Positions 297 through 58,655 of a stretch of DNA of 64,000 bases are shown here, piece by piece. The first letter of the stretch is position 1. Every line of letters starts with the position of its first letter. The translations under genes and the position numbers were made by a program. This DNA is from Alphaproteobacteria bacterium (lineage in GTDB: Bacteria > Pseudomonadota > Alphaproteobacteria > UBA8366 > Aestuariispiraceae), in assembly GCA_024743195.1 (NCBI GenBank), contig JANSXE010000003.1:186001-250000 (forward strand), read 5' to 3'. The notes below the pieces were generated by a model, which saw nothing but the letters and a program-made list of their open reading frames with translations, had not been told where the DNA came from and ran no database searches.

Positions 297-3200
297 TCAG
301 TCGCTGGAGACGTAGCGCTCCCCCCGCTTCTCCGCATGGCCGAGGAGCGCGAGCGAGGCCAGGATCTCCGCCACCTTCGGCTCCGCCCGCTTGCCTTGGG
401 CGAAGCGGCGGGCCAGCGCTTGCGCGCTCGTCGGCGCGTCGGCCTGCAACAGCACGCCGCGGACCGCCGCCATCTGCTCGGGCAGGGTCTTGGGCAGCTT
501 GGGCTTGGCGGCCTTTTGCGCGGCGACGCCCAGGTCGGCCTCGATCTGCTCCGCCTTGGCGGCCGCGGCGGCCTCCTTGGGCGCCTGGAAGTCCGGGCGC
601 AGCCAGCGCACACGGCCGGCGCGCTCCTCGGCCGCGCGCTCGGCGTTGAGCGCGACCAGCCGCTCCAGCAGCGCCGCCTCCGACAGGTCGGCGGGCCAGC
701 CATAGGCCTCGGCGACGGCCGCATCCAGATCGTCGTGGATCTGCTGCAGGATGGCGACCTGACCGGCCGCGTTGACGTCCTTCTCGGCGTCGCTCAACGC
801 CGCGCCGGCCCGGCGCTTCTCCAGCACGTTGTAGAGCCCGGTCATGGTCAGATGCGGCTGCGCCGCGAGGCGCTCCTTGCGGAAGCCGTCGAGCCGCTCC
901 CCCAGTTCGCGAATCCGCGCCGCCTGCGCCGCCGTCGCGTCCGGGAAGGGGAAGGGGTCGAAGCAGCGGGTCTTGTTATAACGCGGCCGATCTTCAAGCG
1001 TGCCCCCCATCGCCAAGGCCCAGGCGCCATGCAGGTGCGACGAGAGCACGCCGAGATGGAAGGCGTCGTCGCTCGCGATGTTCACCAGCATGTTGTCCGG
1101 CCGCACGTCGGCGTCGAGGAACTGGAAGAAGCGGTGCTTGGAGGTTTCGACGGTGGCGATGTAGCGGGTGAGCCCGCTCAAAGCTTTGCGGAGTTCGGTG
1201 CGCGGCTTGCCGAAGAGCCACCAAGACTTGGCGTACTCATTCGAGTCCTTCGTGCCGCCCGCCGCGCCGTCTCTCTGGGGCTTCACGTGGTCTGCGACCC
1301 ATTGAAAAACCTCAGGGAACCTGGTCTGGGCGTCCTCCGCGGTCAGCGGATAGAGATCGATCACCATCACGCCGCGCGGGCGGGCGGTCAGGTCGCGCCC
1401 GTTGCGGTAGTCGAGGATGTGGCTCTCCAGACCGGGGCGCTTGCCCAGGCCCAGCGCCCGCGCCTGCTCCGGCGTGACGATGAAGCCGGCGCCGTGCAAG
1501 GAAACGCCCCGGCTGCTGAGCCCCCCGTTCGCTCGCAACGGAACCGCCGCGGAAAGATCGGCGCCGAGCGTCAGATTCGACCAGATCTTGCCCGTCGCGC
1601 TCGTCAGCGCCACTTTCGGCGCGTCGCTGTTCAGCGCGTCCTCCCGCACCACCGTCTGCAAGAGGCCCGGCCCGTCCCCGGGGACGCCGACCGTCATGGC
1701 GATCCGCACGGCCGCGCGGTCCGCGCCCTTGAGCCACGGATGGTCGGGGATGGCGAGGGCGAGCGACAGCGGCTTCTTCTGGCCCAAATGCCGTTCGATC
1801 ACCCGGCGCGAGAAGGTCTGGGTGATTGAGTTCGTGGTGATCAGCCCGAAGCGCCGCGCCTTGCCGGTGCGCACCAGCTCCGCCGCCTTGTCCCAGAAAT
1901 GCATGACGAAGTCCGCGCCGCCGGGAATGTAAGGGCGCGCGGCCCAGCAGGCCTCCGCATAGCCGTCGCCCAGTTCCTGGCGCATGTCCTTGCCGCCGAT
2001 GAAGGGCGGGTTGCCGATGATGAAGTCGGCGGCGGGCCAGTCGGCGGGCTTGGGGCTCTTGTAGCGGTAAAGCTCGATCCGCCCGTCCTCGTCCGGGACG
2101 GCGGCGCCGGTGACGGGGTGCGGCTTGAAACTGATCCCGTCCCAGCGGGTGCGCGGGCGGCCCCGATCGTCGCGCAGGATGTCGCGGCCGGAATGGGCGA
2201 GGATCGCGTCCTTCTCCCGGATGTTGGCGAAATTCTTCAGCACCGGCTGGGCGGGCATGGATTTGCCGCGGGTGCGGAAGTGCCATTGCAGATAGCCGAT
2301 CCACAGCACCAGCTCCGCGATCGCGACCGCGCGGGGATTGACCTCCAGCCCCAGGAACTGATGCGGGTCGACCGTGTGGCGGTCGAGCTCCAGGATATGC
2401 TGCTGCTCGCCCAGATCGGCCAGCAGCTCCAGCACCTCCCCTTCCAGGCGCTTCATCAGCTCCAGCGCGACATAGAGGAAGTTGCCGGTGCCGCAGGCGG
2501 GGTCGAGGATGCGCGTCTCGCACAGCCTCAGGTGGAAGGCGCGCACCTCGGCGCGCGCCGCCTCCTCCTTGCCGGCCTCGCGCAGCAGCGCGGCGGCGAG
2601 GCGCACGTTCTTCCAATCCTCCGTCAGCGGGTCGATGACGGTGACGCTGACCAGCCGCTCGACATAGGCGCGCGGCGTGTAGTGGGCGCCGAGCTGATGG
2701 CGCTCCGCCGGGTCGAGCGCCTGCTCCAGCAGGGTCCCGAAGATCGCGGGCTCGACGTCCTTCCAGTCGCGCTGGGCGGCGATGTGGAGGAGGTCGAGCT
2801 CGTCCTCGTCGATCGGGATCGCCTCGGCGTCTTTGAACAGCTTGCCGTTGAAGTGCAGGATGTCCTGGTCGAGGGCGGCCGACCAGCCGTCGGCCCCGCC
2901 GCTGTCCATGTCGCGCCACAGGGCCGCCAGCTTATGGTGCAGCCGGTCGGCCTTGCCCTTGTAGTCGGCGAGCAGTCTGGTGAAGCTGCCGGGGGCGAGC
3001 AGACGCACATCCTCCGCGAACATGGTGAAGAGGCAGCGCATCAGAAATAGCGCCGTCTTCTCCGCCACCGCGCGCTTCTGATGCGGCGGCGCCTCGGGGC
3101 CGGCCAGGCGCCGCTCCAGCCGCTTCGACAGGCGGGCGAGCAGGGCGGCGATCTCACGCGTCACCTCCGCCGTGCGGCGCGCGGGGTTGAGGGCCAGCGG

Positions 3201-3815
3201 GTCCTCCCAGAGCTGGCGCAGCCGCGCGCGCACCGCCTCGTCCCGCAAATCCTCCAGATAGATCCGGTAGGACTGACGGTCGGGGAACTGGGCGTAATGC
3301 TTCCCTTGCAGCGAGAAGTCGGCGTAGAGCTCGATCACGTGGCCGACATCGACCACGACCAGGAAAGGCGGCCAGCCTTCGGAGGGCGGCAGGTTCTTGG
3401 CGTAGCTCTCCGCCTGTTCGCGGGCGCTGCGCATCATGGCGTCCCATTGCGGGCCGCCGCGCTTGCCGGACCCGACGCGCATCGAGGCGGCGGCTTCCCG
3501 CTCCTCGCGGAATAGGCCGAGATCGAGCAGCCGCTCCACCCGCTTGCGGCTCTGCTTCGCCTCCATCACGAAGCAGCCGCGGCGGTAGAGGTCGATGAAA
3601 TTGACGGCGTCCCGCCCCTCCAGGCGGCGCGCCTTGACGGTGCGCTCGAAGACGTAGGCGTTGCGGCTCTCGTCCTCCACGCTCGCATCCGGTTTCGGCG
3701 CGCCGAGCAGGTCGCACAGCTCGTTCAGGAAGCTCTGGAAATTGGAGCGCTCGCCGGCGCTGGAGCGCGCCCACTTGTCGATGAAGGCGTCGATGTCGTC
3801 CGCCCCGTCGGCCAT
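297..3815 (-). CDS. MmeI-like Type IIL restriction-modification enzyme (fused nuclease, methyltransferase and specificity domain)
   Basis: A single 1172-residue protein. Residues 75-87 read D-x9-E-A-K, matching the PD-(D/E)xK nuclease motif of MmeI-type enzymes. A helical linker follows, with [14 protein letters not shown] near 376. Then come the N6-adenine methyltransferase motifs DPACGTGNF (438-446) and NPPF (602-605). The C-terminal ~400 residues should hold the target-recognition domain. In this family one polypeptide methylates one strand and cuts at a fixed distance from its site. There is no separate specificity or nuclease gene, which fits the family. The start is ATG at 3815. The nuclease motif looks intact, so it may be an active restriction system rather than an orphan methylase. 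A BREX PglX-like methylase is a less likely alternative because of the N-terminal nuclease motif. Confidence 0.85.
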
Positions 3816-4051
3816 GCCGCCCCGCCCGGAAAAGGCGCGCCGACCCGGCCGGGCCGCGCGCTGGATGCACCCAACGCGCCAAGAGTAGGCCGGTGCGACT
3901 CGCCGGGCAAGCGGCGTCGCGCCGCGTCCGGCTCGACGGGACGCTTGACGCGCCGGGGGCGCGTCGCAACTCTACGCGGCCCGCGACGGGGGCCGCGTTG
4001 CGGCGCGCCGGCGCGGGCGGAATCGAGGAACACGGGGTGAAGGGGGTTTCA

Positions 4052-6235
4052 ATGCAGGATGCTGAAGCGGGCGCCGGCGGGGCGGTCGAGGAGCGGGCGG
4101 GGCTGGCCGTCGCGGCGGAGCTGGCCGCCTTCATCGAGCGCGAGGCGCTGCCGGGGACCGGCGTCGCGCCGGAGGCGTTCTGGGACGGGCTGTCCGCCCT
4201 GATCCACGAGTACGGGCCGAAGAACGCCGCCCTGCTTGCGACGCGCGAAGAGTTGCAGCGCAAGATCGACGCCTGGCATCTGGCCCATCGCGACCGGCCG
4301 CACGATCACGAGGCCTATAAGGCCTTCCTCACCGAGATCGGCTATCTGGCGCCCGAGGGCGAGGCCTTCGAGATCGAGACCGCGAATACGGACCCCGAGA
4401 TCGCGACCACGCCCGGCCCGCAGCTCGTCGTGCCGGTGACCAATGCGCGCTACGCCCTGAACGCGGCCAACGCGCGCTGGGGCAGCCTCTATGACGGGCT
4501 CTACGGCACGGATGCGATGGGAAGCCGGGCGCCGGCCGGCGGCTACGACCGCGGGCGCGGCGCGCGGGTCGTGGCGCGCGCCCGGGTCTTCCTGGATCAG
4601 GCCTTCCCGCTGCAGGGGATCAGCCACGCGGACGCGCGGCGCTATCACGTGCATCAGGGCGAGCTGCTGGTCGACGATCTGCCGCTCCTCCATCCGAGCA
4701 AGTTCATCGGCTATCGCGGCCATCCGCGCGCGCCCGAGGCGGTGCTGCTGCGCAACAACGGGCTGCATGTCGAGCTGGTCTTCGACCGCACCGACCGGAT
4801 CGGCGCGCGCGATCAGGCGGGGTTGGCCGACGTGCGCCTGGAGAGCGCGGTCTCGGCCATCATGGACTGCGAGGATTCGGTCGCCTGCGTCGACGCCGAG
4901 GACAAGGTGCTGGCCTACCGCAACTGGCTGGGCCTGATGACGGGCGATCTGGAGGAGCGCTTCGAGAAGGGCGGCGAGACCGTCACGCGCCGCCTCAATC
5001 CGGACCCGACCTACACCGCGCCCGACGGCGGCGAGGTGACGGTGAAGGGGCGCGCGCTGATGCTGGTGCGCAATGTCGGCCATCTGATGCGCACGCCTGC
5101 GATCCGCGACCGCAACGGCGAGGAGGCCTTCGAGGGCCTGATGGACGCCTACGCCACCGTCCTGATCGCGATGCACGACCTGAAAAAGACCGAGGGCGCG
5201 CGCAACTCCGTCAACGGCTCGATCTACGTCGTGAAGCCGAAGATGCACGGGCCGGAGGAGGTGGCCTTCACCGACGCGATCTTCACCCAGGTCGAGGCGG
5301 CGTTGGGCCTGCCGCGCTACACCGTCAAGATCGGCGTCATGGACGAGGAGCGGCGCACCTCGGTCAACCTGAAGGAGTGCATCCGGGCCGCCAAGCATCG
5401 GGTCGCCTTCATCAACACGGGCTTCCTCGATCGCACCGGCGACGAAATCCACACCTCGATGGAGGCCGGCCCCTTCAGCCGCAAGGACTTCATCAAGCGC
5501 AAGGCCTGGATCGGAGCCTATGAGAATCGCAATGTGGACATCGGCCTCGAATGCGGCCTGTCCGGCAAGGCGCAGATCGGCAAGGGCATGTGGGCCATGC
5601 CGGACATGATGGCGGCGATGCTGGAGACCAAGATCGAGCATCCGAAGGCCGGCGCCAACTGCGCCTGGGTGCCGAGCCCGACGGCGGCGACCCTGCACGC
5701 GCTGCACTATCACCAGGTCGACGTCTTCGCGGTGCAGAAGGCGCTCGCCAAGGGCGGGCGGCGGGCGCATGTGGACGCGCTCCTGGACATCCCGGTCGCC
5801 AGCTTCCGCAAATGGTCGCCCGAGCAGATCCGCCGCGAGGTGGAGAACAACGCGCAGGGCATCCTCGGCTACGTCGTGCGCTGGGTCGATCAGGGGGTCG
5901 GCTGCTCCAAGGTGCCGGACATCAACGATGTCGGGCTGATGGAGGATCGCGCGACCTGCCGCATCTCGGCCCAGCACATCGCCAACTGGCTGCATCACGC
6001 CGTCGTCGGTGAGGACGAGGCGATGGAGATCCTGAAGCGCATGGCCGAGGTGGTGGATCGTCAGAACGACGGCGACCCGCTCTACCGCCCGATGGCGCCC
6101 GGCTTCGACGGCGCGGCCTTCCACGCCGCCTGCGATCTGGTCTTCAAGGGCCGCGCGCAGCCCTCGGGCTACACCGAGCCGCTGCTGCACGCCTACCGTC
6201 TGCAGGTGAAGGCGAGCCGGCGCAACGTGGGCTGA
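4052..6235 (+). CDS. glcB: malate synthase G
   Basis: Condenses glyoxylate with acetyl-CoA to malate in the glyoxylate and glycolate pathways. From ATG 4052 the protein has 727 residues, close to the 723 of E. coli GlcB, and it aligns along its whole length by eye. Conserved blocks include [56 protein letters not shown] and [11 protein letters not shown], which carry the active-site Arg, Glu and Asp residues. An open frame continues upstream to 3893, but that extension has no family similarity, and a GAAGGGGG ribosome site lies about 6 bases before 4052. No isocitrate lyase or glycolate oxidase gene is in the window. Confidence 0.96.
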
Positions 6236-6251
6236 GGAATTAGCGGCGCCG

Positions 6252-6361
6252 CCCTTCGAGACGGGCGCTGACGCGCCCTCCTCAGGGTGAGGGTTCTTCA
6301 TTTTGGGTCCGGGAGTTGGCCCTCATCCCGAGAGGTCGCCGGCAGCCGGCGTCGCGAAGGA
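6252..6361. repeat. pair of inverted REP-like palindromic repeats (copies 1a and 1b)
   Basis: Copy 1a (6252-6293, forward) begins CCTTCGAGAC, has the stem GGGCGC-TGAC-GCGCCC at 6263-6278 and ends CTCAGGGTGAGG. Copy 1b (6320-6361) is the same element in reverse orientation with CCGGC arms, a degenerate copy near its TCTC segment. The pair sits between the converging 3' ends of malate synthase and the MFS gene, so the transcript could fold into a long hairpin and act as a two-way terminator or mRNA stabiliser. Confidence 0.75.
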
Positions 6362-6384
6362 CGCGGGCGGCGTTTGGCGCGCGC

Positions 6385-7776
6385 TCAGTCTTCGCCGGCG
6401 GCCCGCGCCATGTCCGCCGCCGGCGGCAGGGAGCGGGCGTAGAGAGCGGCGATGAGCGCCAGCGCGCCGGCCGCCGCGACGCCCGCGGGCGCGCCGGCGG
6501 CGTCCACCAGCACGCCGACGAACAGCGCGGCCAGCGCGATCAGCCCGACGGCGCTGTTGGCGAAGGCGGCGTAGAGCGCCTTTTCCTCCTTCGGCGCGCC
6601 GTCGACCAGATAGGTCTTGCGGCCGAGCCGCACGCCGGCCTCCGCGACGCCCAGCAGCACGAAGACCAGCCCATAGAGCCAGAGGCTCCAGCCCGGCGCG
6701 CCGCCGATCAGGAAATGGATGGCGAGCGCGAGGGCCGCGGCCGCGACGGCCGCGAGGGCGGCGAGCGTCATCACCGTCTCGCTCGCCGCGTCCGAAAGCC
6801 GGCCCCAAAGCGGGCTGGAGACGATGTTGGCGAGGCCGACCGCGAACAGCATGACCGCCAGCGCGCCCGCCCCCTGGCCGTAGAGCGAGACCGCGTGCAG
6901 CGCATAGACCGGCATGGCGAGTTCGACCGACAATAGGAGCGCGCGCGCCTTGACGAAGCGGTTATAGGGCCGGTTCTCGCGCATCGCTGCGAAGCCGGCG
7001 GCCAGCGATTGGGCCATCGAGCGCCCGCCGCCGGTCGCGCCCGGCGCTTCTTCGATCAGCGCAAAGGCGAGCGTCGCGCCGACCCAGAGCGCCGCGGCGC
7101 CGAGCACCAGGGGCAGCGCCAGCGCGGCCCCGTCCTCGACCCCGAATTTGAGCGCGGCCGCCGCGACGAGCACCAACGCCCCGCCGATCGCCGCGCGCGT
7201 CGCCAGCAGCCGCCCGCGCCGTCCCTTGGGGATCGTCTTGCCCATCACGTCCTGGAAGGCGACGGAGGCCGCGCCCGACATCACGCTGAAGAGCGCGAAC
7301 AGCGCGACGGCGGCGACGCCTGCGGCGAGCCCGTTCAGCGACGTTGCGGCGAGCGCCAGCCCCGCCATCGCCGCGGCCTGCACCGCGCCGGCGGCGACCC
7401 AGACCTTTTTGCGCGTGGGCCGGCCGCGGATCGCGCCCGCAACCAGCATCTGCGGGGCCAACGAGAAGGCTTGCTTCACCGCCGGCATGACCGTCGCGAA
7501 GGCGGCTGGGGCGCCCGCGGCCGTCAGCAGCCAGGGCAGCGTCAGGCCCGGGCTCGCCAATTGCTCCGCCAGCTTCGAGCAGGCGCCGTTCAGGGCGTTC
7601 AGCGTGAAGTTGCGGGGCACGGCCGTGCACTGCCCGTCGGGAATCGCCTCGCAGGCCCGTTCGTCCGCGTCGTCGCCCGATAGGATGCGATAGGGCAGAT
7701 CGAACCGTCCGCCCCAATCGGGCGTGGGCTCGGCGTTGAACGCGTCGCCGGTCGAAGCGGTTGGAGAGTTGGTCAT
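6385..7776 (-). CDS. MFS transporter
   Basis: A 463-residue polytopic membrane protein. The first ~60 residues are hydrophilic; then come about 11-12 hydrophobic segments rich in Ala, Gly and Leu. The loop GKTIPKGRRGRLLATRAAIG resembles the conserved cytoplasmic loop of major facilitator carriers. Start ATG 7776. It is transcribed alone, divergent from the small exported protein at 7899. The substrate cannot be deduced. Confidence 0.8.
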   Translation of the reverse strand: MTNSPTASTGDAFNAEPTPDWGGRFDLPYRILSGDDADERACEAIPDGQCTAVPRNFTLNALNGACSKLAEQLASPGLTLPWLLTAAGAPAAFATVMPAVKQAFSLAPQMLVAGAIRGRPTRKKVWVAAGAVQAAAMAGLALAATSLNGLAAGVAAVALFALFSVMSGAASVAFQDVMGKTIPKGRRGRLLATRAAIGGALVLVAAAALKFGVEDGAALALPLVLGAAALWVGATLAFALIEEAPGATGGGRSMAQSLAAGFAAMRENRPYNRFVKARALLLSVELAMPVYALHAVSLYGQGAGALAVMLFAVGLANIVSSPLWGRLSDAASETVMTLAALAAVAAAALALAIHFLIGGAPGWSLWLYGLVFVLLGVAEAGVRLGRKTYLVDGAPKEEKALYAAFANSAVGLIALAALFVGVLVDAAGAPAGVAAAGALALIAALYARSLPPAADMARAAGED

Positions 7777-7898
7777 GGGCGGTCAGGGGGCAATGGGGGC
7801 GGGATGATGCGGCAAGGAGCCTAGCGCGGCGGCGCGCGCAGTCAAATCGGCGACGCGCGCGTCTCTCCCCTTGGCGCGAAATCGGGTAGGCTCCGCGG

Positions 7899-8210
7899 AT
7901 GCGATACGCGCTCACGATCGTCCTGATGCTGTTGCTGCTTCCGTCCGCCGCCGATGCGCCCGCGGGGGCGCAAGGAGTGTCGGAAGGCGCGCGGTCCCCG
8001 GACCGCTTCATGCTGACGGTCGAGGATTCCAACGCGCGCCGTCGGCTGGAGACGCTGCTGCTGGCGGAGTGCCTCCAGGTGGTCGGCGCTGAAGGGCTCG
8101 AGCGGCTGCGGCGGATGCGCCGCGAGGAGGGGCTGCCCGCCTTTTCCGTGGGCTGGTGCATCCGGAAAGGCCATATGCCCTGGGACCTGGACGGGGATTG
8201 GCCGCGCTAG
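7899..8210 (+). CDS. small putative exported protein, unknown function
   Basis: A 103-residue protein whose first ~25 residues (MRYALTIVLMLLLLPSAADA and a short Ala/Gly stretch) look like a Sec signal peptide. The mature part is mostly charged and helical (RRLETLLLAECLQ, GLERLRRMRREEGL) and has two cysteines. I do not recognise the family. Its stop lies 7 bases from the stop of the converging cytochrome gene. The signal peptide and normal codon usage support a real gene, but it could be spurious. Confidence 0.5.
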   Translation: MRYALTIVLMLLLLPSAADAPAGAQGVSEGARSPDRFMLTVEDSNARRRLETLLLAECLQVVGAEGLERLRRMRREEGLPAFSVGWCIRKGHMPWDLDGDWPR

Positions 8211-8217
8211 CGCGCGA

Positions 8218-8697
8218 TCAGTCGTCGTTCCCGATTAGCAGGTCGTCGTCCCCCGTGCAGCGCTGCGAGTCCTCGACGCCAGGGTTAGCGGTCTGGCAGG
8301 CGTAGTAGAGCGCAAGGTCATGCAGGGTTCTGTAGTCGAGGCGTTGCGCGAAACTCTCCATGAAGGCGTGCGGTCGATAGCCGTCCCGGAAGTTGCGCAT
8401 GGTGTTGAGCAGATACTGCTCGTGCTGGCCGGCGAGCTTGGGCCAGCCGGGCTCGACTCCGAATCCGGCGCGGCCGTGGCACGAGTCGCAGTTGAGCTCC
8501 TCCGCCAGCCGTTCGCCGCGATCATAGCTGCCCAGCGTCGGCTGCAGTTTCACCGCGGGCAGGCGTCCGTCGCGCGCGGAATAGTCGTCCCTCTGCGCCG
8601 GTTCGTCGTTTGGAACATCCTGCTGCGCCGGTTCGTCCTGCGCCTGCGCGGCAATAAGCGCGGGCGCCGCCAGAACGACGGCAACCGCGGCGGCCAA
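8218..8697 (-). CDS. class I c-type cytochrome (single haem), exported
   Basis: A 159-residue protein with one haem motif, CDSCH, near residue 70 in the context LNCDSCHGRAGFG. GWPKLAGQHEQYLLNTMRNF follows, typical of cytochrome c553/c4-type domains in which a later Met gives the sixth ligand. The N-terminus is hydrophobic and precedes an AQAQDEP stretch, consistent with a cleaved signal peptide. The start is unclear: TTG at 8697 gives a signal peptide without the usual basic residues. The same frame runs on upstream to a stop at 8803 and includes FRAFRRCR just before it, but offers no ATG or GTG; CTG 8730 is possible. Probably a periplasmic electron carrier. Confidence 0.82.
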   Translation of the reverse strand: MAAAVAVVLAAPALIAAQAQDEPAQQDVPNDEPAQRDDYSARDGRLPAVKLQPTLGSYDRGERLAEELNCDSCHGRAGFGVEPGWPKLAGQHEQYLLNTMRNFRDGYRPHAFMESFAQRLDYRTLHDLALYYACQTANPGVEDSQRCTGDDDLLIGNDD

Positions 8698-8832
8698 CCG
8701 GCAGCGTCGAAAGGCCCGGAAAACGAACAGCGCGGCCTCACCACCCGAAACGCAGGGTCCCCACCCTGGATGAACCGGCCGGCCCCACGATCGGCCGCCG
8801 ACCTAACACACGCATCGTTCGCCGTCTCGCGC

Positions 8833-9636
8833 CTAGGACCGGTAACTCGGATCGACCCGGTCCAACATGCGCAGATAGGCGGGCCATTCCGGCACATCCT
8901 CGCTCGACCCGGCGGAGGCCTCGCTGCTCTCCCACTGCTGGGCGGTGTGCTCGCACACCTGCGGGGAGGGCAGCGTGATCGTGCGGCCGGTCTGCATGAC
9001 GTCGAGCTGCACCTGGCAGGCCTGTTCCAGATAGTACAGGCGAGAGAATGCACGCGCAACACTATGCGCGGCGGTGAGAAGCCCGTGATTGCGCAGGATC
9101 ATCGTGTGCTTGTCGCCGAGATCGGCGATCAGCCGCTCCCGTTCCGACAGGTCCAGCGCGATGCCTTCATAGTCGTGATAGGCGATCCGGTCGTAGAATT
9201 GGAAGCCCCCCTGGGTCATGGGCAGGAAGCCCTCCTCCAGGCAGGAGACCGCGACGCCGGCGCGGCTGTGGGTGTGCAGGACGCAGACGAGATCGGGCCG
9301 CGCGCCGTGCACCGCGCTGTGGATCGTGTAGCCGGCCATGTTGATCCCGTAGTCGGAGCCGTCCAGCACATTGCCGTCGAGATCGATCTTCACGAGGTTC
9401 GAGGCGCAGACCTCGTCATAGGCGAGGCCGTAGGGATTGATCAGGATCTCGTGCCGGCCGTCCGCATGCTCGCCCGGAACCCGCGCGGTGATGTGGTTGT
9501 AGATCTGGTCGGTCCAGCCGTAGTGATGGATCAGCCGATAGCAGGCCGCGAGATCGACCCGCATGGCCCATTCGGCGTCCGAGCAGTCGAGCGTGCGGGT
9601 CGGCGGGGACAGATCGGCGCGCAGTTCGTCGGGCAT
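8833..9636 (-). CDS. class II aldolase/adducin family protein
   Basis: A 267-residue protein of the zinc-dependent class II aldolase family, which includes fuculose-phosphate aldolase, ribulose-phosphate epimerase and decarboxylase-like members. Zinc-binding histidines are visible in VLHTHSRAGVAVS and in ILRNHGLLTAA; the YNHITARVPG segment near the start is also typical. Start ATG 9636. It lies 51 bases after the dioxygenase gene and probably shares its transcript. Together with the dioxygenase and the EamA carrier it suggests turnover of a small oxygenated metabolite. The substrate is unknown. Confidence 0.88.
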   Translation of the reverse strand: MPDELRADLSPPTRTLDCSDAEWAMRVDLAACYRLIHHYGWTDQIYNHITARVPGEHADGRHEILINPYGLAYDEVCASNLVKIDLDGNVLDGSDYGINMAGYTIHSAVHGARPDLVCVLHTHSRAGVAVSCLEEGFLPMTQGGFQFYDRIAYHDYEGIALDLSERERLIADLGDKHTMILRNHGLLTAAHSVARAFSRLYYLEQACQVQLDVMQTGRTITLPSPQVCEHTAQQWESSEASAGSSEDVPEWPAYLRMLDRVDPSYRS

Positions 9637-48554: not shown

Positions 48555-48584
48555 CGCGCAACTGCGCGTCCAGTTAATCTGGAC
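48555..48584 (+). promoter_or_regulatory. two adjacent palindromes upstream of the demethylase operon, candidate TetR operator
   Basis: Two perfect inverted repeats share one base: CGCGCA-AC-TGCGCG (48555-48568) and GTCCAG-TTAAT-CTGGAC (48568-48584). They lie 62-91 bases before the dehydrogenase ATG, within an AT-richer stretch (with TTTAAT at 48592-48597 as a possible -10). The second one has the size and symmetry of a TetR-family operator, and a TetR gene ends this operon. Confidence 0.55.
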
Positions 48585-48645
48585 AGAAGTGTTTAATGCG
48601 ACCTACTGTTGCGCCGGGATTGAGCAAGGCGGTCGGGAGGAGCGC

Positions 48646-51051
48646 ATGAAGTCGCACTATCGCGCGGTGGTGATCGGGGGCGGGGTCGTCGGGACCTCGG
48701 TGCTTTATCATCTGGCGAAACTGGGCTGGACCGACGTGTGCCTGATCGAGCGCTCGGTGCTGACCGCGGGGTCGAGCTGGCACGCCGCCGGCGGCTTCCA
48801 CGCCTTGAACGCCGACCCCAACATCGCGGCCTTGCAGGCCTATACGATCGATTTGCTGTCCGAAATCGAGGCGGAGAGCGGCCAGTCCGTCGGCATGCAC
48901 ATGACCGGCGGCATGACGCTGGCCGGCACGCCGGACCGGTGGGAGTGGCTGCAGTCCGCCTACCGCGTGTTCCAGTCGATCGGGATCGAGGACGTCCATC
49001 TGATCACGCCGGAAGAGGCGGGGGAGCTTTGCCCCGTTATGTCGACGCACGGGATTCTCGGCGGCATGTGGGCGGAGCGCGAGGGCTATGTCGACACGAC
49101 CGGAACGGTCCACGCCTACGCCGGCGCGGCCAAGAAGCGCGGCGCGCAGGTCGTCGAGCACAACCGCGTGCTTGGGCTGACCGAGACCGCCGAGGGTTGG
49201 CGCCTCGACACGGAAAAGGGCCCGGTCCACTGCGAGCATGTGGTCAACGCCGCCGGCCTCTGGGCCAAGCAGGTGGGGCGGATGGCGGGGATCGAACTGC
49301 CGGTCTCGCCGCTCGCCCACCACTACCTGCTGACCGAGTCGATCCCGGAGATCGAGGCGCTGGACAAGGAGTTGCCCTTGGTCGTGGACCTCGAAGGCTT
49401 CACCTATATGCGCCAGGATCAGAAGGGGATGCTGCTGGGCATCTACGAAATCGACCACAAGCACTGGATGATGGACGGCGCCCCCTGGGACTACGGCGTC
49501 GAACTGCTGCAGGAAGAGACCGACCGGATCGAAAACGAACTGGCGCTCGGCCTCGAACGCTATCCGGTGCTGCAGACAGCCGGGGTGCGCAACTGGGTGA
49601 ACGGCGCCTTCACTTTCTCGCCCGACGGCAACCCGCTGGTCGGTCCGGTGCGCGGCAAGCGCGGCTATTGGTGCGCCTGCGCCGTGATGGCGGGCTTCCT
49701 GCAGGGCGGCGGCGTCGGCAAGTCCCTGGCCGAGTGGATGGTCCACGGCGAACCGGAGGCCGACGTCTTCGGCATGGATGTCGCCCGGTACGGCCCCTTT
49801 GCCGAGAACAAGGAATACATCCGCCAGACCACGGGCCAGTTCTACACCCGGCGCTTCGTGATGACCTATCCGAACGAGCAGTTGCCGGCGGGGCGGCCGC
49901 TCAAGATGGCGCCCGCCTACGACGCGATGAGCGCCGCCGGCGCGCATTGGGGCGCGTCCTGGGGGCTCGAAGTCCCGCTCTATTTCGCACCGCAGGGTTT
50001 CGAGGAGACGCCGACGCTGAAGCGCTCCAACGCCTTCCCGATCGTGGCGGAGGAGTGCCGCGCCGTGCGCGAGGCGGTGGGGCTGCTCGACATCACCGGC
50101 TTCTCCCGCTTCGAGGTGACGGGGGAGGGGGCCGAGGCCTGGCTGGACCGGCTGGTGGCGTCGAAGCTGCCGGGCCCCGGCCGGGCCCGGCTGGCTCCCA
50201 TGTTGTCCGAGACGGGGCGCCTCAAGGGCGACCTCACGATCTTCAATTGGGGCGACGGAACCTGGTGGATCATGGGGTCCTACTACCTGCGCGCCTGGCA
50301 TCTTCGCTGGTTCCACGATCATATGGGCGAAGGCGTCAGCCTGCGGGATCTGTCGGATGCGGTCGTCGGGTTCTCGCTGTCCGGTCCCAACAGCCGCGCG
50401 GTCCTAAAGCGGTTGACAGACGGCCCGATCGGCGACGTGCCTTTCATGGGCTGCGGCGTCTTCGACATCGGCCTGATCCGTGCGAAAGTCGGCCGGCTCT
50501 CGGTGGCGGGCGAACTCGGCTACGAGATTCACTGCGGGGCGGTCGAGCACGTCGCGCTGCGTCGCCTGCTGCTTGAGGCGGGCGCCGATCTGGGCCTGCG
50601 CGAGATCGGCTACAATGCGCTCCTCAGCCTGCGCCTTGAGAAGAGCTTCGGCATCTGGTCGGCGGAGTTCACCCAGCGCTTCACGCCGGCCCAAACCGGC
50701 ATGGACCGGTGGATCGCCTGGGACAAAGGGGCGTTCATCGGCCGGGAGGCGGCGCTCGCCGAACGCGACGGCGGCGGGCCGGCCCAAGTGATCGTCACGC
50801 TGGAGGTCGATGCAGACGGCGCCGACGCCAGCGGGTTCGAGCCGGTCTGGCGCGACGGGACTCTGGTCGGCTTCGTCACTTCGGGCGGCTACGGCCATTG
50901 GGTCGGCAAGTCGTTGGCCATGGCGATGGTCGACCGCGACGCGGCGGTCGAGGGAACGGCGCTCAGCGCGCACATCGTCGGGGCGGAGCGGCCGGCGACG
51001 GTGATCGCGCCCTCGCCTTACGACCCCGCAGGCGCGAAGATGAGGGGATGA
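48646..51051 (+). CDS. dimethylglycine/sarcosine dehydrogenase-like flavoprotein (FAD domain + GcvT-like folate domain)
   Basis: An 801-residue two-part enzyme. The FAD domain opens with VVIGGGVVGTSVLYHLAK, and His46 in GSSWHAAG is where mitochondrial dimethylglycine and sarcosine dehydrogenases attach FAD covalently. From about residue 430 the chain becomes an aminomethyltransferase (GcvT)-like domain (LLDITGFSRFEVTGEGAEAWL, VAGELGYEIHC, YNALLSLRLEKSFG) that would transfer formaldehyde to tetrahydrofolate. Probably demethylates an N-methylated amine. ATG 48646 has GGGAGGAGC upstream. First gene of an operon with an MttB homologue (stop overlaps as ATGA) and a TetR regulator. Confidence 0.9.
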   Translation: MKSHYRAVVIGGGVVGTSVLYHLAKLGWTDVCLIERSVLTAGSSWHAAGGFHALNADPNIAALQAYTIDLLSEIEAESGQSVGMHMTGGMTLAGTPDRWEWLQSAYRVFQSIGIEDVHLITPEEAGELCPVMSTHGILGGMWAEREGYVDTTGTVHAYAGAAKKRGAQVVEHNRVLGLTETAEGWRLDTEKGPVHCEHVVNAAGLWAKQVGRMAGIELPVSPLAHHYLLTESIPEIEALDKELPLVVDLEGFTYMRQDQKGMLLGIYEIDHKHWMMDGAPWDYGVELLQEETDRIENELALGLERYPVLQTAGVRNWVNGAFTFSPDGNPLVGPVRGKRGYWCACAVMAGFLQGGGVGKSLAEWMVHGEPEADVFGMDVARYGPFAENKEYIRQTTGQFYTRRFVMTYPNEQLPAGRPLKMAPAYDAMSAAGAHWGASWGLEVPLYFAPQGFEETPTLKRSNAFPIVAEECRAVREAVGLLDITGFSRFEVTGEGAEAWLDRLVASKLPGPGRARLAPMLSETGRLKGDLTIFNWGDGTWWIMGSYYLRAWHLRWFHDHMGEGVSLRDLSDAVVGFSLSGPNSRAVLKRLTDGPIGDVPFMGCGVFDIGLIRAKVGRLSVAGELGYEIHCGAVEHVALRRLLLEAGADLGLREIGYNALLSLRLEKSFGIWSAEFTQRFTPAQTGMDRWIAWDKGAFIGREAALAERDGGGPAQVIVTLEVDADGADASGFEPVWRDGTLVGFVTSGGYGHWVGKSLAMAMVDRDAAVEGTALSAHIVGAERPATVIAPSPYDPAGAKMRG

Positions 51052-52595
51052 TGGATCACGAATCCTCCGGTCGCACGAGCCGCCGGCGCCGCGCCCCGCG
51101 CGGCGAGACGGCGGCGAAGCGGGACGTGAACTACCGCGATCTGCGCAATCCGTTCCCCGTGATGGCGATCTTCTCCGAAGACCGGATCGCCGCGATCCAC
51201 GAGGCGGCGCTGACCATGCTGCAGGATCTCGGGATCAAGGTGCTGCTGCCGCAGGCCCGGGAGATCTTCCGTCGGGGCGGCGCCAAGGTCGACGAGGCGA
51301 GCGAGATGGTCTTCATCGGCCGCGAGATCGTCGAGACCGCGCTCGCCTCCGCGCCGCGCTCGATCCGATGCCGCGCCGGCGCGCGCGATCGGGACGTGAC
51401 GCTGGAGCTGGGCAGGCTGGTGTTTCAACCGGGCGCCGGCGCGCCGCACGCGACCGATCTGGAGCGCGGCCGGCGCCCCGGGCGGGCATGCGACTTCAGG
51501 GAACTGGTGCAGCTCACGCAGCATTTTGACGTGCTGCACATGGTCCCGCCGCTGATCGAGCCGCAGGACGTTGTGGCCAACCTCCGTCACTTCTTCACGA
51601 TGGAGGCGCAGCTCACGCTCAGCGACAAGCTGCCCTTCATCTTCTCCCGTGGGACGCCGCAGGTGCTGGATGGGTTCGAGATGCTGCGCGACTTCCGCGG
51701 GCTGTCCGACGCGGCGTTCCAGGCGGAGAGTTGGTGCTACACGATCATCAACACCAATTCGCCGCGCCAGATCGACATTCCCATGGCGCAGGGCCTGATC
51801 GACTTCGCGCGCTTCGGCCAGGTCTCCATCGTCACCCCCTTCACGCTGATGGGGGCGATGGCCCCGGTCACGGTTGCGGGCGCGATGACCCTCTCGCATG
51901 CGGAGGCGCTGGCGGCGATCGCCTTGACGCAGTTGGTCAATCCGGGCGCGCCCGTGTGCTACGGCACCTTCACGTCCAACGTCGCCATGAAGTCCGGCGC
52001 GCCCGCCTTCGGCACGCCGGAGCATTTCAAGGCCTCGCTGGCGGCCGGCCAGTTGGCCCGCTTCATCGGCCTTCCCTGGCGCTGCGCCAGCGGGTCGGCG
52101 GCCAACATAAACGACGCCCAGGCCGCGCATGAGACGCAGTTCGCGCTCTGGGGCTGCCTGCTGGCGGGGGCGACGGTGGTGATCCATTCGGCCGGCTGGC
52201 TGGAAGGCGGCCTGACGGTCTCCTACGAGAAGCTGATCACCGATCTGGAGGCGCTGCAGATGGTCGCCGAGCTGTGCGCCGAGACGCCGGCGGGCGAGGC
52301 GGAGATCGCGCTGGACGCCATCCGCGACGTCGGACCGGGCGGGCACTTCTTCGGGGCGGCGCACACGATGGCGCGCTATCAAACGGCGTTCTACGAGCCG
52401 TTGGTCGCCGATTGGTCGAACTTCGGAACCTGGACCGAGCGCGGCGGCCTTGACGCCAGCCAGCGCGCGACGAAGGTCTGGCGGGACGTTCTGGAGGACG
52501 GGGCGCCGCCCGCGCTTGACCCGGTCCGGGTTTCGGCTCTAAGCGACTTCATCCGCAAACGGACGGCGGAAGGCGGCGCCCCGCCGGAAAGCTGA
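51048..52595 (+). CDS. MttB/MtgB-like methyltransferase (trimethylamine methyltransferase family, no pyrrolysine)
   Basis: A 515-residue protein of the MttB superfamily. Family blocks include AIHEAALTMLQDLGIKVL, TPFTLMGAMAPVTVAGAMTLSHAEALA and HSAGWLEGGLTVSYEKLI. True archaeal MttB reads an amber codon as pyrrolysine; this gene is open throughout with no in-frame TAG, so it belongs to the non-pyrrolysine group in which the characterised example (MtgB) acts on glycine betaine. The usual next step is transfer to a corrinoid protein, yet no corrinoid gene is present. It overlaps the dehydrogenase by ATGA. Likely substrate: a quaternary or methylated amine. Confidence 0.87.
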   Translation: MMDHESSGRTSRRRRAPRGETAAKRDVNYRDLRNPFPVMAIFSEDRIAAIHEAALTMLQDLGIKVLLPQAREIFRRGGAKVDEASEMVFIGREIVETALASAPRSIRCRAGARDRDVTLELGRLVFQPGAGAPHATDLERGRRPGRACDFRELVQLTQHFDVLHMVPPLIEPQDVVANLRHFFTMEAQLTLSDKLPFIFSRGTPQVLDGFEMLRDFRGLSDAAFQAESWCYTIINTNSPRQIDIPMAQGLIDFARFGQVSIVTPFTLMGAMAPVTVAGAMTLSHAEALAAIALTQLVNPGAPVCYGTFTSNVAMKSGAPAFGTPEHFKASLAAGQLARFIGLPWRCASGSAANINDAQAAHETQFALWGCLLAGATVVIHSAGWLEGGLTVSYEKLITDLEALQMVAELCAETPAGEAEIALDAIRDVGPGGHFFGAAHTMARYQTAFYEPLVADWSNFGTWTERGGLDASQRATKVWRDVLEDGAPPALDPVRVSALSDFIRKRTAEGGAPPES

Positions 52596-52596
52596 G

Positions 52597-53268
52597 ATGG
52601 CCAAACAGCCGACCCCCATGCTGCGCCGGGACGACCCGGACCGCGAACCGCTCACCGGTCACATCAAGGTGACGCGGGACGACTGGCTGAACGTCGCCCG
52701 CGACATCCTGGTGAGCGACGGGGTGAGCGAGGTGAAGGTCTTGGCCATCGGCCAGCGGCTGCAGGTGTCCCGCTCGTCCTTCTATTGGTATTTCAAGAGC
52801 CGCAAGGACCTGCTCGACGCGTTGCTCGACGATTGGGAACTGCGCAATACAGCCTCCATCATCCGCCACTGCTCGGCGCCGAGCGCGACGATCACGGGCG
52901 CCGTGTGCAACTTCTTCCGCTGCTTCCTCGATCCGACGCTGTTCGACCAGGGGCTGGATTTCGCCGTGCGCGAGTGGGCGCGGCGCGACGGCACGGTGCG
53001 CAAGCGCATCGATCTCGCGGATCAGAAGCGCCTGGTCGCCGTCGCCGCCATGTTCGAACGGCATGGCTACAGCCCCTATGACGCCGACGTGCGCGCGCGG
53101 ATTCTGTATTTCATGCAGCTCGGCTATCACGCGCTCGACCAGACGGAGCCGATGGAGGAGCGCCTGAAGCGCCTGGAAGGCTATCTGGAGGGGTTCACCG
53201 GCGTCGCGCCGCGCCCGGAGGAGTGCGAGGCCATCCGCACCCTGGCCGCCCGCGTCGCGAAGACGTGA
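52597..53268 (+). CDS. TetR/AcrR-family regulator
   Basis: A 223-residue regulator. The HTH lies near residues 45-70 (VLAIGQRLQVSRSSFYWYFKSRKDLLDALL), followed by a variable helical ligand domain. It starts 1 base after the MttB-like stop and almost certainly shares its operon. The palindromes upstream of the operon are candidate targets, making this an autoregulated catabolic unit sensing the amine or a breakdown product. Confidence 0.9.
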   Translation: MAKQPTPMLRRDDPDREPLTGHIKVTRDDWLNVARDILVSDGVSEVKVLAIGQRLQVSRSSFYWYFKSRKDLLDALLDDWELRNTASIIRHCSAPSATITGAVCNFFRCFLDPTLFDQGLDFAVREWARRDGTVRKRIDLADQKRLVAVAAMFERHGYSPYDADVRARILYFMQLGYHALDQTEPMEERLKRLEGYLEGFTGVAPRPEECEAIRTLAARVAKT

Positions 53269-53371
53269 TCGCCCGGGCGGCCGTTGGCCTTTCGGGCGGC
53301 GGATGCTATGCGCCGCGCTCCAATCCCAAGCGCCGGCGCTTTGCCGTCGCGCGACATGGAGCCCGGCGAGC

Positions 53372-54490
53372 GTGGACGACGACATTGCGATCATCGGCGG
53401 CGGGCTCAGTGGTTTGGCGCTGGCCGACCGGCTGACCCGGGAGGGGCTCGACTTGCGTCTCTTCGAGGCGCGCGACCGCCTGGGCGGGCGCATCTTGAGC
53501 GAGCCCGCCTCGACGCCCGATCGCGAAGGCGGGAGGACGGTTTTCGGCGCGGCGTTCGATCTCGGCCCCGCTTGGCTGTGGTCCCACAATCGGCGCATGC
53601 TCCGCGCCGCCGAGCGCTTCGGGCTTCCCATCTTCGAGCAATATGCGCAGGGTCGGCTCGCCTTTCAGGACGAGGCGGGCGCGGTCCGCCGCGACCTCGA
53701 ATTCGCGCCGATGGCCGGGTCGCTGCGGCTTGCGGGCGGCGCGGCGGCGCTGACGTCCGCCTTCGCAGAGGCCGTCCCCCCGGATCGCCTGCACGTGCGG
53801 CGCGTCCTGCGCCGGGTGCAGCGCGCGCCGGGCGGCGTCGCGCTGACGCTCGACGGCCCGGCCGGGACCGTGTCGGTGCGGGTCCGTCGGGTCGCGTTCG
53901 CGCTGCCGCCGCGTCTCCTGGCGGCGCATGTCGCGTTCGAGCCCGATTTGCCCTCTGCGCTGCAGCGTGCGCTGACCGCCGCGCCGACCTGGATGGCGGG
54001 GCAGGCGAAACTCGTCGCCGTCTACCCGACCCCGTTCTGGCGCGACGCCGGGCTTTCGGGCGATGCGATCAGCCGCCGCGGGCCGTTGGCGGAAATCCAC
54101 GACGCCTCTCCGGCGGACGGATCGGTTGGCGCGCTGTTCGGCTTCGTCGGCGCGCCGGCGGACGCACGGCGCGGGCGCGCCGCGGGCGTGCGCCAAGCGG
54201 CGCTGGCGCAACTCGGCGCATTGTTCGGACCGCAGGCCAACGCGCCGAGGGACGTCTTGTACAAGGATTGGGCCGATGATCCGGCGACGGCGACGGCGGC
54301 CGACCGCGCGGCGCTGGCCGAGCATCCCCAATACGGCGCGACCGCGGCCTTCCAGGGCGCCTGGGAGGGGCGTCTGTTCTTCGCCGGCGCCGAGGCCGCG
54401 ACGCAGGACGGGGGCTACATGGAAGGCGCGCTGGAGGCGGCGGAGGCCTGCGCGGCGCACTTGGTCGGCAACGGCGCCGCGCCCGCCTAG
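53372..54490 (+). CDS. FAD-dependent amine oxidase-like oxidoreductase
   Basis: A 372-residue flavin monoamine oxidase-type protein. The ADP-binding loop is IIGGGLSGLALADRL right at the start, followed by FEARDRLGGRI; the C-terminus has GRLFFAGAEAATQDGGYMEGALEAAEAC, the family's FAD-binding end. GTG 53372 places the start just before this loop; an ATG at 53303 would add 23 residues. It may have its own promoter, because the TetR gene ends 103 bases before. The substrate is unknown; the neighbourhood suggests an amine. Confidence 0.85.
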   Translation: MDDDIAIIGGGLSGLALADRLTREGLDLRLFEARDRLGGRILSEPASTPDREGGRTVFGAAFDLGPAWLWSHNRRMLRAAERFGLPIFEQYAQGRLAFQDEAGAVRRDLEFAPMAGSLRLAGGAAALTSAFAEAVPPDRLHVRRVLRRVQRAPGGVALTLDGPAGTVSVRVRRVAFALPPRLLAAHVAFEPDLPSALQRALTAAPTWMAGQAKLVAVYPTPFWRDAGLSGDAISRRGPLAEIHDASPADGSVGALFGFVGAPADARRGRAAGVRQAALAQLGALFGPQANAPRDVLYKDWADDPATATAADRAALAEHPQYGATAAFQGAWEGRLFFAGAEAATQDGGYMEGALEAAEACAAHLVGNGAAPA

Positions 54491-54550: not shown

Positions 54551-54626
54551 TGGCTCCGGCGGCAGGACTCGAACCTGCGACCCAGCGGTTAACAGCCGCT
54601 TGCTCTACCAACTGAGCTACACCGGA
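54551..54626 (-). tRNA. tRNA-Asn (GTT)
   Basis: Minus-strand cloverleaf of 76 bases including an encoded CCA. The acceptor arms are TCCGGTG/CGCCGGA, the anticodon stem is AGCGG/CCGCT with loop CTGTTAA (anticodon GTT), and the T loop is GGTTCGAGTCC. All arms pair. Confidence 0.97.
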
Positions 54627-57750: not shown

Positions 57751-57980
57751 ACCGGCCGGGCGCGCCCTTCGGGAAACTCGATTGCAATAAATCCCCGACT
57801 CGGTGCAGCGTTAAGCCAGATCGGGAGTTGTCGGGCCGGGGCGCGCGGCGGCGTTTCGATTCCGGCCGCGGCGCTTGGCGTCATTCGCGGCGGCCGTGCG
57901 TGGGCTGCGTCGTCGGTTGGGGGAAGCGTTCGACGCGGATCGGACCCTGACGGCGGAGGGTGGAAGGACAGGTCTGGACC

Positions 57981-58655
<675 letters not shown>

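Follow-up and report, generated by a model that had tools for sequence, protein, structure and literature searches.

A three-gene operon in a 64,000-nucleotide stretch of DNA from an alphaproteobacterium of the family Aestuariispiraceae (contig JANSXE010000003.1 of assembly GCA_024743195.1; the whole stretch is called the window) is predicted to demethylate one quaternary ammonium compound, a betaine, in consecutive steps. The operon encodes a protein resembling dimethylglycine dehydrogenase (DMGDH), a methyltransferase of the MttB superfamily without pyrrolysine, and a TetR-family regulator that is probably a local repressor. The corrinoid protein MtgC, which would accept the first methyl group, appears to be encoded in trans. 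Judged from sequence comparisons, the probability of this reading was estimated at about 0.8.

Organization and conservation of the operon

The gene for the DMGDH-like protein, a putative demethylase binding flavin adenine dinucleotide (FAD) and folate, was located at 48646-51051 (plus strand, 801 amino acids). It is followed on the same strand by the MttB gene at 51048-52595 (515 amino acids), the ATG of which at 51048 falls inside the end of the DMGDH gene in an ATGA overlap. A single nucleotide separates the end of the MttB gene at 52595 from the ATG of the TetR gene at 52597-53268 (plus strand, 223 amino acids). These positions, the strand, the overlap and the gap had been given correctly in an initial annotation of the window, and its assignment of the three genes to the DMGDH-like, MttB and TetR families was upheld by Pfam profiles. 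It had also called the genes fused, which was too strong, because the genes overlap and the proteins are separate. Its proposal that they form one operon was backed by the spacing and by the conserved gene order, which make a single transcription unit likely. The G+C content of the operon was 68.4%, compared with 69.5% for the window, and thus its base composition is ordinary. A consensus scan yielded no promoter-like sites and 10 terminator-like sites versus 3.2 in shuffled sequences, and those on the plus strand lay inside the DMGDH gene.

The MttB protein matched the Pfam profile PF06253 over its whole length (residues 12-510, 678.6 bits, cut-off 25). It stayed below the equivalog cut-off of TIGR02369, the model of the pyrrolysine trimethylamine methyltransferase (278.6 versus 525 bits), no in-frame TAG was present in its gene, and its Gly349 aligned with Pyl334 of the solved pyrrolysine MttB. 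The DMGDH-like protein contained the Pfam domains DAO, FAO_M, GCV_T and GCV_T_C in the order expected for a dimethylglycine dehydrogenase. Its closest solved structures were mammalian dimethylglycine dehydrogenases (490.7 bits, near full length), and dimethylglycine oxidase scored 243.6 bits. It also carried a WHAAG motif, the histidine of which we take to carry the FAD. The regulator matched TetR_N (PF00440) with 39.2 bits at a cut-off of 24.

Gene order was compared among the best 80 of 219 confirmed MttB relatives from a genome collection covering bacteria and archaea, as had been proposed in the initial annotation. The DMGDH gene was situated directly upstream of the MttB gene in 74 of the 80, and six had no adjoining DMGDH gene. 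A TetR gene was found downstream in 61 and in divergent orientation in three further cases (64/80 in all), and clustering of the open reading frames (ORFs) of the 80 loci revealed no further constant neighbour. It is therefore hardly credible that the three genes are chance neighbours from separate pathways, an idea that could draw on three loci (L105, L106 and L107) at which DMGDH and TetR relatives occur together with no adjoining MttB gene. Most of the relatives belonged to the Roseobacteraceae and Paracoccaceae, and a few came from the Hyphomicrobiales and other groups. Among the matches listed (150 for MttB, 78 for DMGDH), at least 30 MttB-DMGDH pairs were no more than 3 kilobases (kb) apart in any orientation, distributed over 24 of 46 genomes. 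In the public annotation of a Leisingera thetidis plasmid, an FAD-dependent oxidoreductase, a trimethylamine methyltransferase family protein and a TetR protein stand in a row. Taken together, a DMGDH-MttB operon under predicted TetR control is common in marine alphaproteobacteria. Locus L134 duplicates L030 (R. sediminis) and is included in the tally of 80. The MttB match at L073 contains a stop codon.

The corrinoid protein is encoded elsewhere in the genome

The initial annotation had noted the missing corrinoid protein and left two options, namely that it is encoded elsewhere or that this MttB uses another acceptor. The absence was confirmed for the operon and does not hold for the genome. 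A profile search, which had likewise been proposed, revealed the B12-binding_2 domain (E <= 0.001) at three places. The first is a MetH-type gene on contig C31 with pterin-binding, B12 and activation domains, the second an ORF of 404 amino acids on contig C29, and the third a stand-alone corrinoid protein of the MtgC type on contig C11 (L014:8646-9341), in which B12-binding_2 and B12-binding both exceeded the Pfam cut-offs. The latter protein contains DIHDIG at position 113, an instance of DxHxxG, which is presumably the cobalt-ligand motif. A histidine ligand triad of corrinoid proteins is described in the available part of PMC9842639.

The mtgC gene on C11 is accompanied by a DUF1638 gene (L014:9354-10085, above the Pfam cut-off), a pterin-binding mtgD gene (L014:13698-14606, PF00809 with 91.3 bits) and a gene for a corrinoid reactivase of the RACo/RamA type (L014:14647-16734, three RACo domains above the Pfam cut-offs). 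MtgD passed the NCBIfam model PRK07535 for methyltetrahydrofolate:corrinoid methyltransferases (367 versus 259). The cluster further includes genes for a PF13769 protein, an ArsR-methyltransferase and a homocysteine S-methyltransferase, the last as a partial match to model positions 2-161 of 283.

The co-occurrence of the two proteins was determined in 241 alphaproteobacterial genomes with a threshold of E <= 1e-60 for MttB, which misses remote members (four of the five MttBs found by profile in the window's own genome were recovered). An MttB match was present in 46 genomes, and every one of these also encodes an MtgC of 74% identity or higher. Of the 195 genomes devoid of an MttB match, none has an MtgC this close, and five have a weaker match of 43-49%. 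In the alphaproteobacteria sampled, one MtgC usually accompanies several MttBs in a genome. A common alternative acceptor would not predict 46/46 versus 0/195, and thus the co-occurrence speaks against one. A non-corrinoid acceptor, for example tetrahydrofolate bound to the DMGDH partner, would agree with the lack of a corrinoid gene in the operon and with the tight coupling to a folate-binding enzyme. The close MtgC in all MttB genomes and the existence of MttB relatives that have no adjoining DMGDH gene (6/80; L115) render it very improbable. Hence, of the two options the former is supported: the corrinoid protein that seemed to be missing is predicted to be the one encoded on C11, and the latter option found no backing. 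Where no corrinoid gene adjoins an MttB gene, a new methyl acceptor does not have to be assumed.

The two enzymes probably act one after the other

The initial annotation had suggested that MttB and the DMGDH-like enzyme strip methyl groups from one amine by two routes. That both act on one methylated amine was upheld as probable, and demethylation by both enzymes is retained; consecutive steps fit better than parallel routes. Consecutive steps are favoured because the substrate of DMGDH-type enzymes is a tertiary amine, the product expected of an MttB-type enzyme. In the first step MttB would move a single methyl group onto the Co(I) corrinoid carried by the MtgC protein from C11, and MtgD would hand it on to tetrahydrofolate, with the RamA-like protein and the DUF1638 protein keeping the corrinoid reduced. 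In the second step the DMGDH-like flavoenzyme would oxidise a second methyl group of the tertiary amine product onto tetrahydrofolate. In a variable third step the last methyl group could be taken by an oxidase in or near the operon, such as SoxBDA, a DAO-family FAD oxidase or perhaps a cytochrome P450.

Genome G037 yielded neither an MttB match (E <= 1e-60) nor an MtgC match (E <= 1e-50). It carries relatives of the window DMGDH (66%) and TetR (53%) together with soxBDA and a DctM-type TRAP permease (L105, 2470-12968). A similar arrangement was found in genome G134, in which MttBs are encoded elsewhere. The occurrence of DMGDH and TetR in G037, where no MttB match was obtained at this threshold, indicates that the two can also handle a substrate for which MttB is not required, in keeping with a DMGDH that acts after MttB. 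Two candidate TetR sites were observed at the G037 locus, possibly marking a dimethylated-amine regulon of the same TetR type. One of the sites in G037, with one mismatch to the operator described below, lies 46 nucleotides upstream of a gene beside the DctM-type TRAP permease and next to the DMGDH-sox cluster. The product of this gene resembles a TRAP binding protein by eye, and it had no NCBIfam match at 1e-30.

A candidate operator for the TetR regulator

The word GTCTAGAC was strongly enriched upstream of the DMGDH gene, occurring in 31 of 81 regions (32 with the duplicate); in 20 shuffles no 8-letter word reached a count above 7. For these 81 regions L016, which equals the window, and the duplicate L134 had been dropped. 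When up to two mismatches were allowed, the palindrome CTRGACA-N4-TGTCYAG was present in 61 of the 81 regions; over 200 shuffles the mean was 0.09 and the highest count 2. Where a TetR gene was close by, 58 of 61 regions contained the palindrome, compared with three of the 20 regions that had no such gene (Fisher p 9e-12). With the duplicate retained, the counts were 62/82 overall and 59/62 near a TetR gene. The association persisted when the DMGDHs were collapsed at 90% identity (40/42 versus 3/17), at 85% (27/27 versus 1/11) and at 82% (16/16 versus 1/8). Ten genomes were scanned with at most one mismatch, and six perfect sites were found in five genomes, all of them at the DMGDH promoter by coordinate arithmetic; the one-mismatch counts exceeded those of a reversed-pattern control in none of the ten. 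In the window the candidate operator is CTGGACAGAAGTGTTTAA at 48579-48596 (no strand assigned), which starts 67 nucleotides before the DMGDH start and has two mismatches. An inverted-repeat scan of the DMGDH promoter reported three pairs, and the candidate operator was not among them because its arms are imperfect.

It was the initial annotation's view that an ordinary corrinoid gene set elsewhere in the genome, co-regulated with the operon, would refute its interpretation. Such a set does exist, and no candidate operator was found at it. No site with at most one mismatch was detected near mtgC in genomes G000-G003 or G005, for which the places of mtgC are known. Over the 18 kb surrounding the C11 cluster no match had fewer than three mismatches, which is background; the window contains six three-mismatch sites besides its operator. 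The TetR protein probably represses the operon via the palindromic promoter site. The candidate operator also offers a handle on the substrate, because it can be asked which methylated compound releases the TetR protein.

A perfect repeat, GTCCAG-TTAAT-CTGGAC at 48568-48584, had been the first guess for the operator and was rejected: it occurred with at most three mismatches in 12 of 83 regions versus a shuffle mean of 9.4. In this count the window (L016) and R. sediminis (L030, L134) were each represented twice.

Further oxidases and accessory genes

The gene following the operon was classified in 79 relatives, leaving out L073, the MttB match of which overlapped the DMGDH match. It encoded a DAO-family FAD oxidase in 19 cases and soxB in eight (27/79), and one locus ended too early for a call. 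Among the 80 relatives soxD followed in five and a clear soxA in two. A complete soxB-soxD-soxA run was present at L037 and L042; at both, soxB passed the NCBIfam cut-off, soxA and soxD remained below it, and soxD exceeded that of Pfam at L037. In L042 the operon also adjoins OpuAC and a permease of the ProW/choline type that stays under both NCBIfam cut-offs, the only OpuAC linkage among the 80.

In the window the operon is followed by an ORF for a flavin amine oxidase (53303-54490, plus strand, PF01593, start not fixed), which begins 34 nucleotides past the TetR stop and is possibly co-transcribed. It may perform the third step there. Shortly past its end a tRNA-Asn gene is located on the minus strand (54551-54626). 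Further downstream, 57960-58655 encodes a protein whose two ends are separated by a long Pro-Glu repeat and which to us resembles PopZ.

Additional genes were observed at single loci. At three loci (L034, L044 and L153, the last on a Leisingera plasmid) a cytochrome P450 gene lies between the DMGDH and MttB genes, and an alpha/beta hydrolase gene precedes the operon at L034 and L044. At L136 and L138, in two genomes of the window's own family, the genes after MttB encode an amidohydrolase, which came nearest to the Xaa-Pro dipeptidase model without reaching its cut-off, and a sodium:alanine symporter. At L115 (genome G246, 542-9114) genes for a Rieske oxygenase, an FAD protein like D-amino-acid dehydrogenase and a 4-hydroxyproline epimerase are situated 3.7-7 kb from the MttB gene; only the epimerase passed the NCBIfam cut-off. 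We take this set to be reminiscent of hydroxyproline betaine use.

Several points weigh against the proposed consecutive demethylation and its regulation. The MttB at L115 has 69% identity and stands without a DMGDH gene, and therefore the pairing is not obligatory. The MtgC on C11 had MtgC as its best NCBIfam model, yet it scored 214.4 against a cut-off of 370, and the RamA-like protein fell below the cut-offs of both RamA (102.8 of 500) and AcsV (386.7 of 800). The co-occurrence of MttB and MtgC (46/46) follows phylogeny and is uncorrected for kinship. The operator motif was derived and counted on the same upstream regions (61/81), so that only its association with TetR is independent. The window operator with its two mismatches is a weak match, and in the scan of its own genome no site with at most one mismatch appeared at the operon. 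Finally, 51 of the 79 relatives had none of the three third-oxidase types looked for, and the amine oxidase of the window was rejected as a conserved next gene (0/79).

The substrate may be another betaine than glycine betaine

If the substrate were glycine betaine, MttB would yield dimethylglycine, the DMGDH-like enzyme sarcosine, and a sarcosine oxidase glycine. The closest solved relatives of the flavoenzyme are in accordance with this pathway, as are soxB adjoining the operon in eight of 79 relatives, in two of them with soxD and soxA, and the transporter genes at L042. On the other side, OpuAC linkage was found at one locus of 80, and the window's own genome contains four other MttB genes, of which one is beside another DMGDH-like gene (L010, 5195-9281) and one divergent from one (L009, 10202-14662). 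Moreover, two MttB-family proteins, SPO2108 and SPO2134, are reported to rise on glycine betaine in Ruegeria pomeroyi (PMC12478193, in its accessible part), and these would correspond to the L009 and L010 types rather than to that of the window. This assignment rests on locus-tag spacing in R. sediminis and on the shared order of mtgC, one gene and DUF1638. The MttBs located 57 and 28 kb from mtgC in R. sediminis are of the L009 type (59% identity) and the L010 type (58%), respectively, further MttBs of this species also match these types best (L129, L131, L132, L133), and its window-type MttB lies on a contig other than that of mtgC. A plasmid search at E <= 1e-120 gave no Ruegeria record among the matches listed. 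Glycine betaine is thus possible, with a chance that stays well short of even.

An even chance was given to some other quaternary amine, such as a longer betaine or a cyclic one, which is at least as likely a substrate. In a quick tree the window MttB falls into its own clade, several MttB-DMGDH pairs occur within one genome, and the extra genes of the relatives differ (DAO oxidase, P450, alpha/beta hydrolase, Xaa-Pro dipeptidase-like amidohydrolase, 4-hydroxyproline epimerase cluster). In Eubacterium, the published MttB homologues each have their own betaine according to the accessible parts of PMC12478193 and PMC12155760. Against this, no neighbour is constant enough to name a compound, and the sarcosine oxidase and OpuAC neighbours of some relatives point to glycine betaine. 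A fuller picture, tentative and a little below even odds, would be a TetR-sensed module that completely demethylates a betaine other than glycine betaine, with an uncharacterised MttB specificity acting on a shared MtgC-MtgD relay and with an exchangeable third oxidase.

Probable origin of the operon

A quick MttB tree of 105 rows with midpoint root was calculated; L071 and L114 had been excluded from it as too short, and L073 for the stop codon in its match. The window MttB grouped with mostly Roseobacteraceae and Paracoccaceae in a starred set of 72, and no smaller starred set holds it. A starred set of 81 leaves out four MttB homologues from the window's own family. Just five of 14 genomes of this family, including that of the window, had a match at E <= 1e-180, and at this threshold the only other genome of the genus had none. 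A horizontal transfer is likely.

Comparison with known systems

No description of a DMGDH-MttB-TetR operon or of its operator was found in the open-licence literature searched, and the operator sequence itself was not searched for. CTRGACA-N4-TGTCYAG as a candidate TetR operator is put forward here as new. The best match of the window MttB among solved structures was 4yyc, a 'putative trimethylamine methyltransferase' of the non-pyrrolysine MttB family (293.4 bits, residues 8-506), which by eye is nearer to the L009-type MttB. The non-pyrrolysine glycine betaine methyltransferase MtgB of Desulfitobacterium hafniense (PDB 2qne, 9yce) followed with 265.2 and 264.8 bits. D. hafniense differs in being an anaerobe for which mtgA, mtgB and mtgC are described together, and no DMGDH partner is mentioned in the available part of PMC12478193. 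In Eubacterium limosum, the source of MtpB, MtcB and MtyB, many MttB paralogues exist, and several share the corrinoid protein MtqC; this acetogen differs in using proline betaine, carnitine and gamma-butyrobetaine (accessible parts of PMC8604678 and PMC12155760; compared by description only). The mammalian dimethylglycine dehydrogenases (4p9s, 4pab, 5l46) matched the DMGDH-like protein near full length with 485-491 bits and share the WHAAG motif. In contrast, the window enzyme is bacterial, its gene is next to MttB, and its activity is predicted.

The closest likeness is to MtgBCD(E) of Ruegeria pomeroyi DSS-3, for which PMC12478193 (Mausz and others) is cited in its accessible part. There, too, an aerobic alphaproteobacterium has several MttBs, one MtgC, one MtgD, RamA and DUF1638 encoded apart, with the methyl groups ending on tetrahydrofolate. 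Mutants of mtgC and mtgD no longer grow on glycine betaine, a genome can have as many as seven MttB genes, diverse methylated compounds are suggested to use the MtgBCD route, and the roseobacter MtgC is described as distinct from that of D. hafniense. A corrinoid protein encoded in trans is thus already known for related bacteria, and because this system has been published, the window operon belongs to a known kind. It differs from that of R. pomeroyi in that its MttB shares an operon with DMGDH and a TetR of its own, in that C11 holds a cluster of MtgC, MtgD and a homocysteine-methyltransferase-like gene, as reported for S. meliloti (PMC12478193), and in that the genome also has a MetH-type gene. 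As MtgBCD is reported to be a major betaine route in the ocean, sorting its MttB paralogues by substrate matters for nitrogen and methyl-group cycling.

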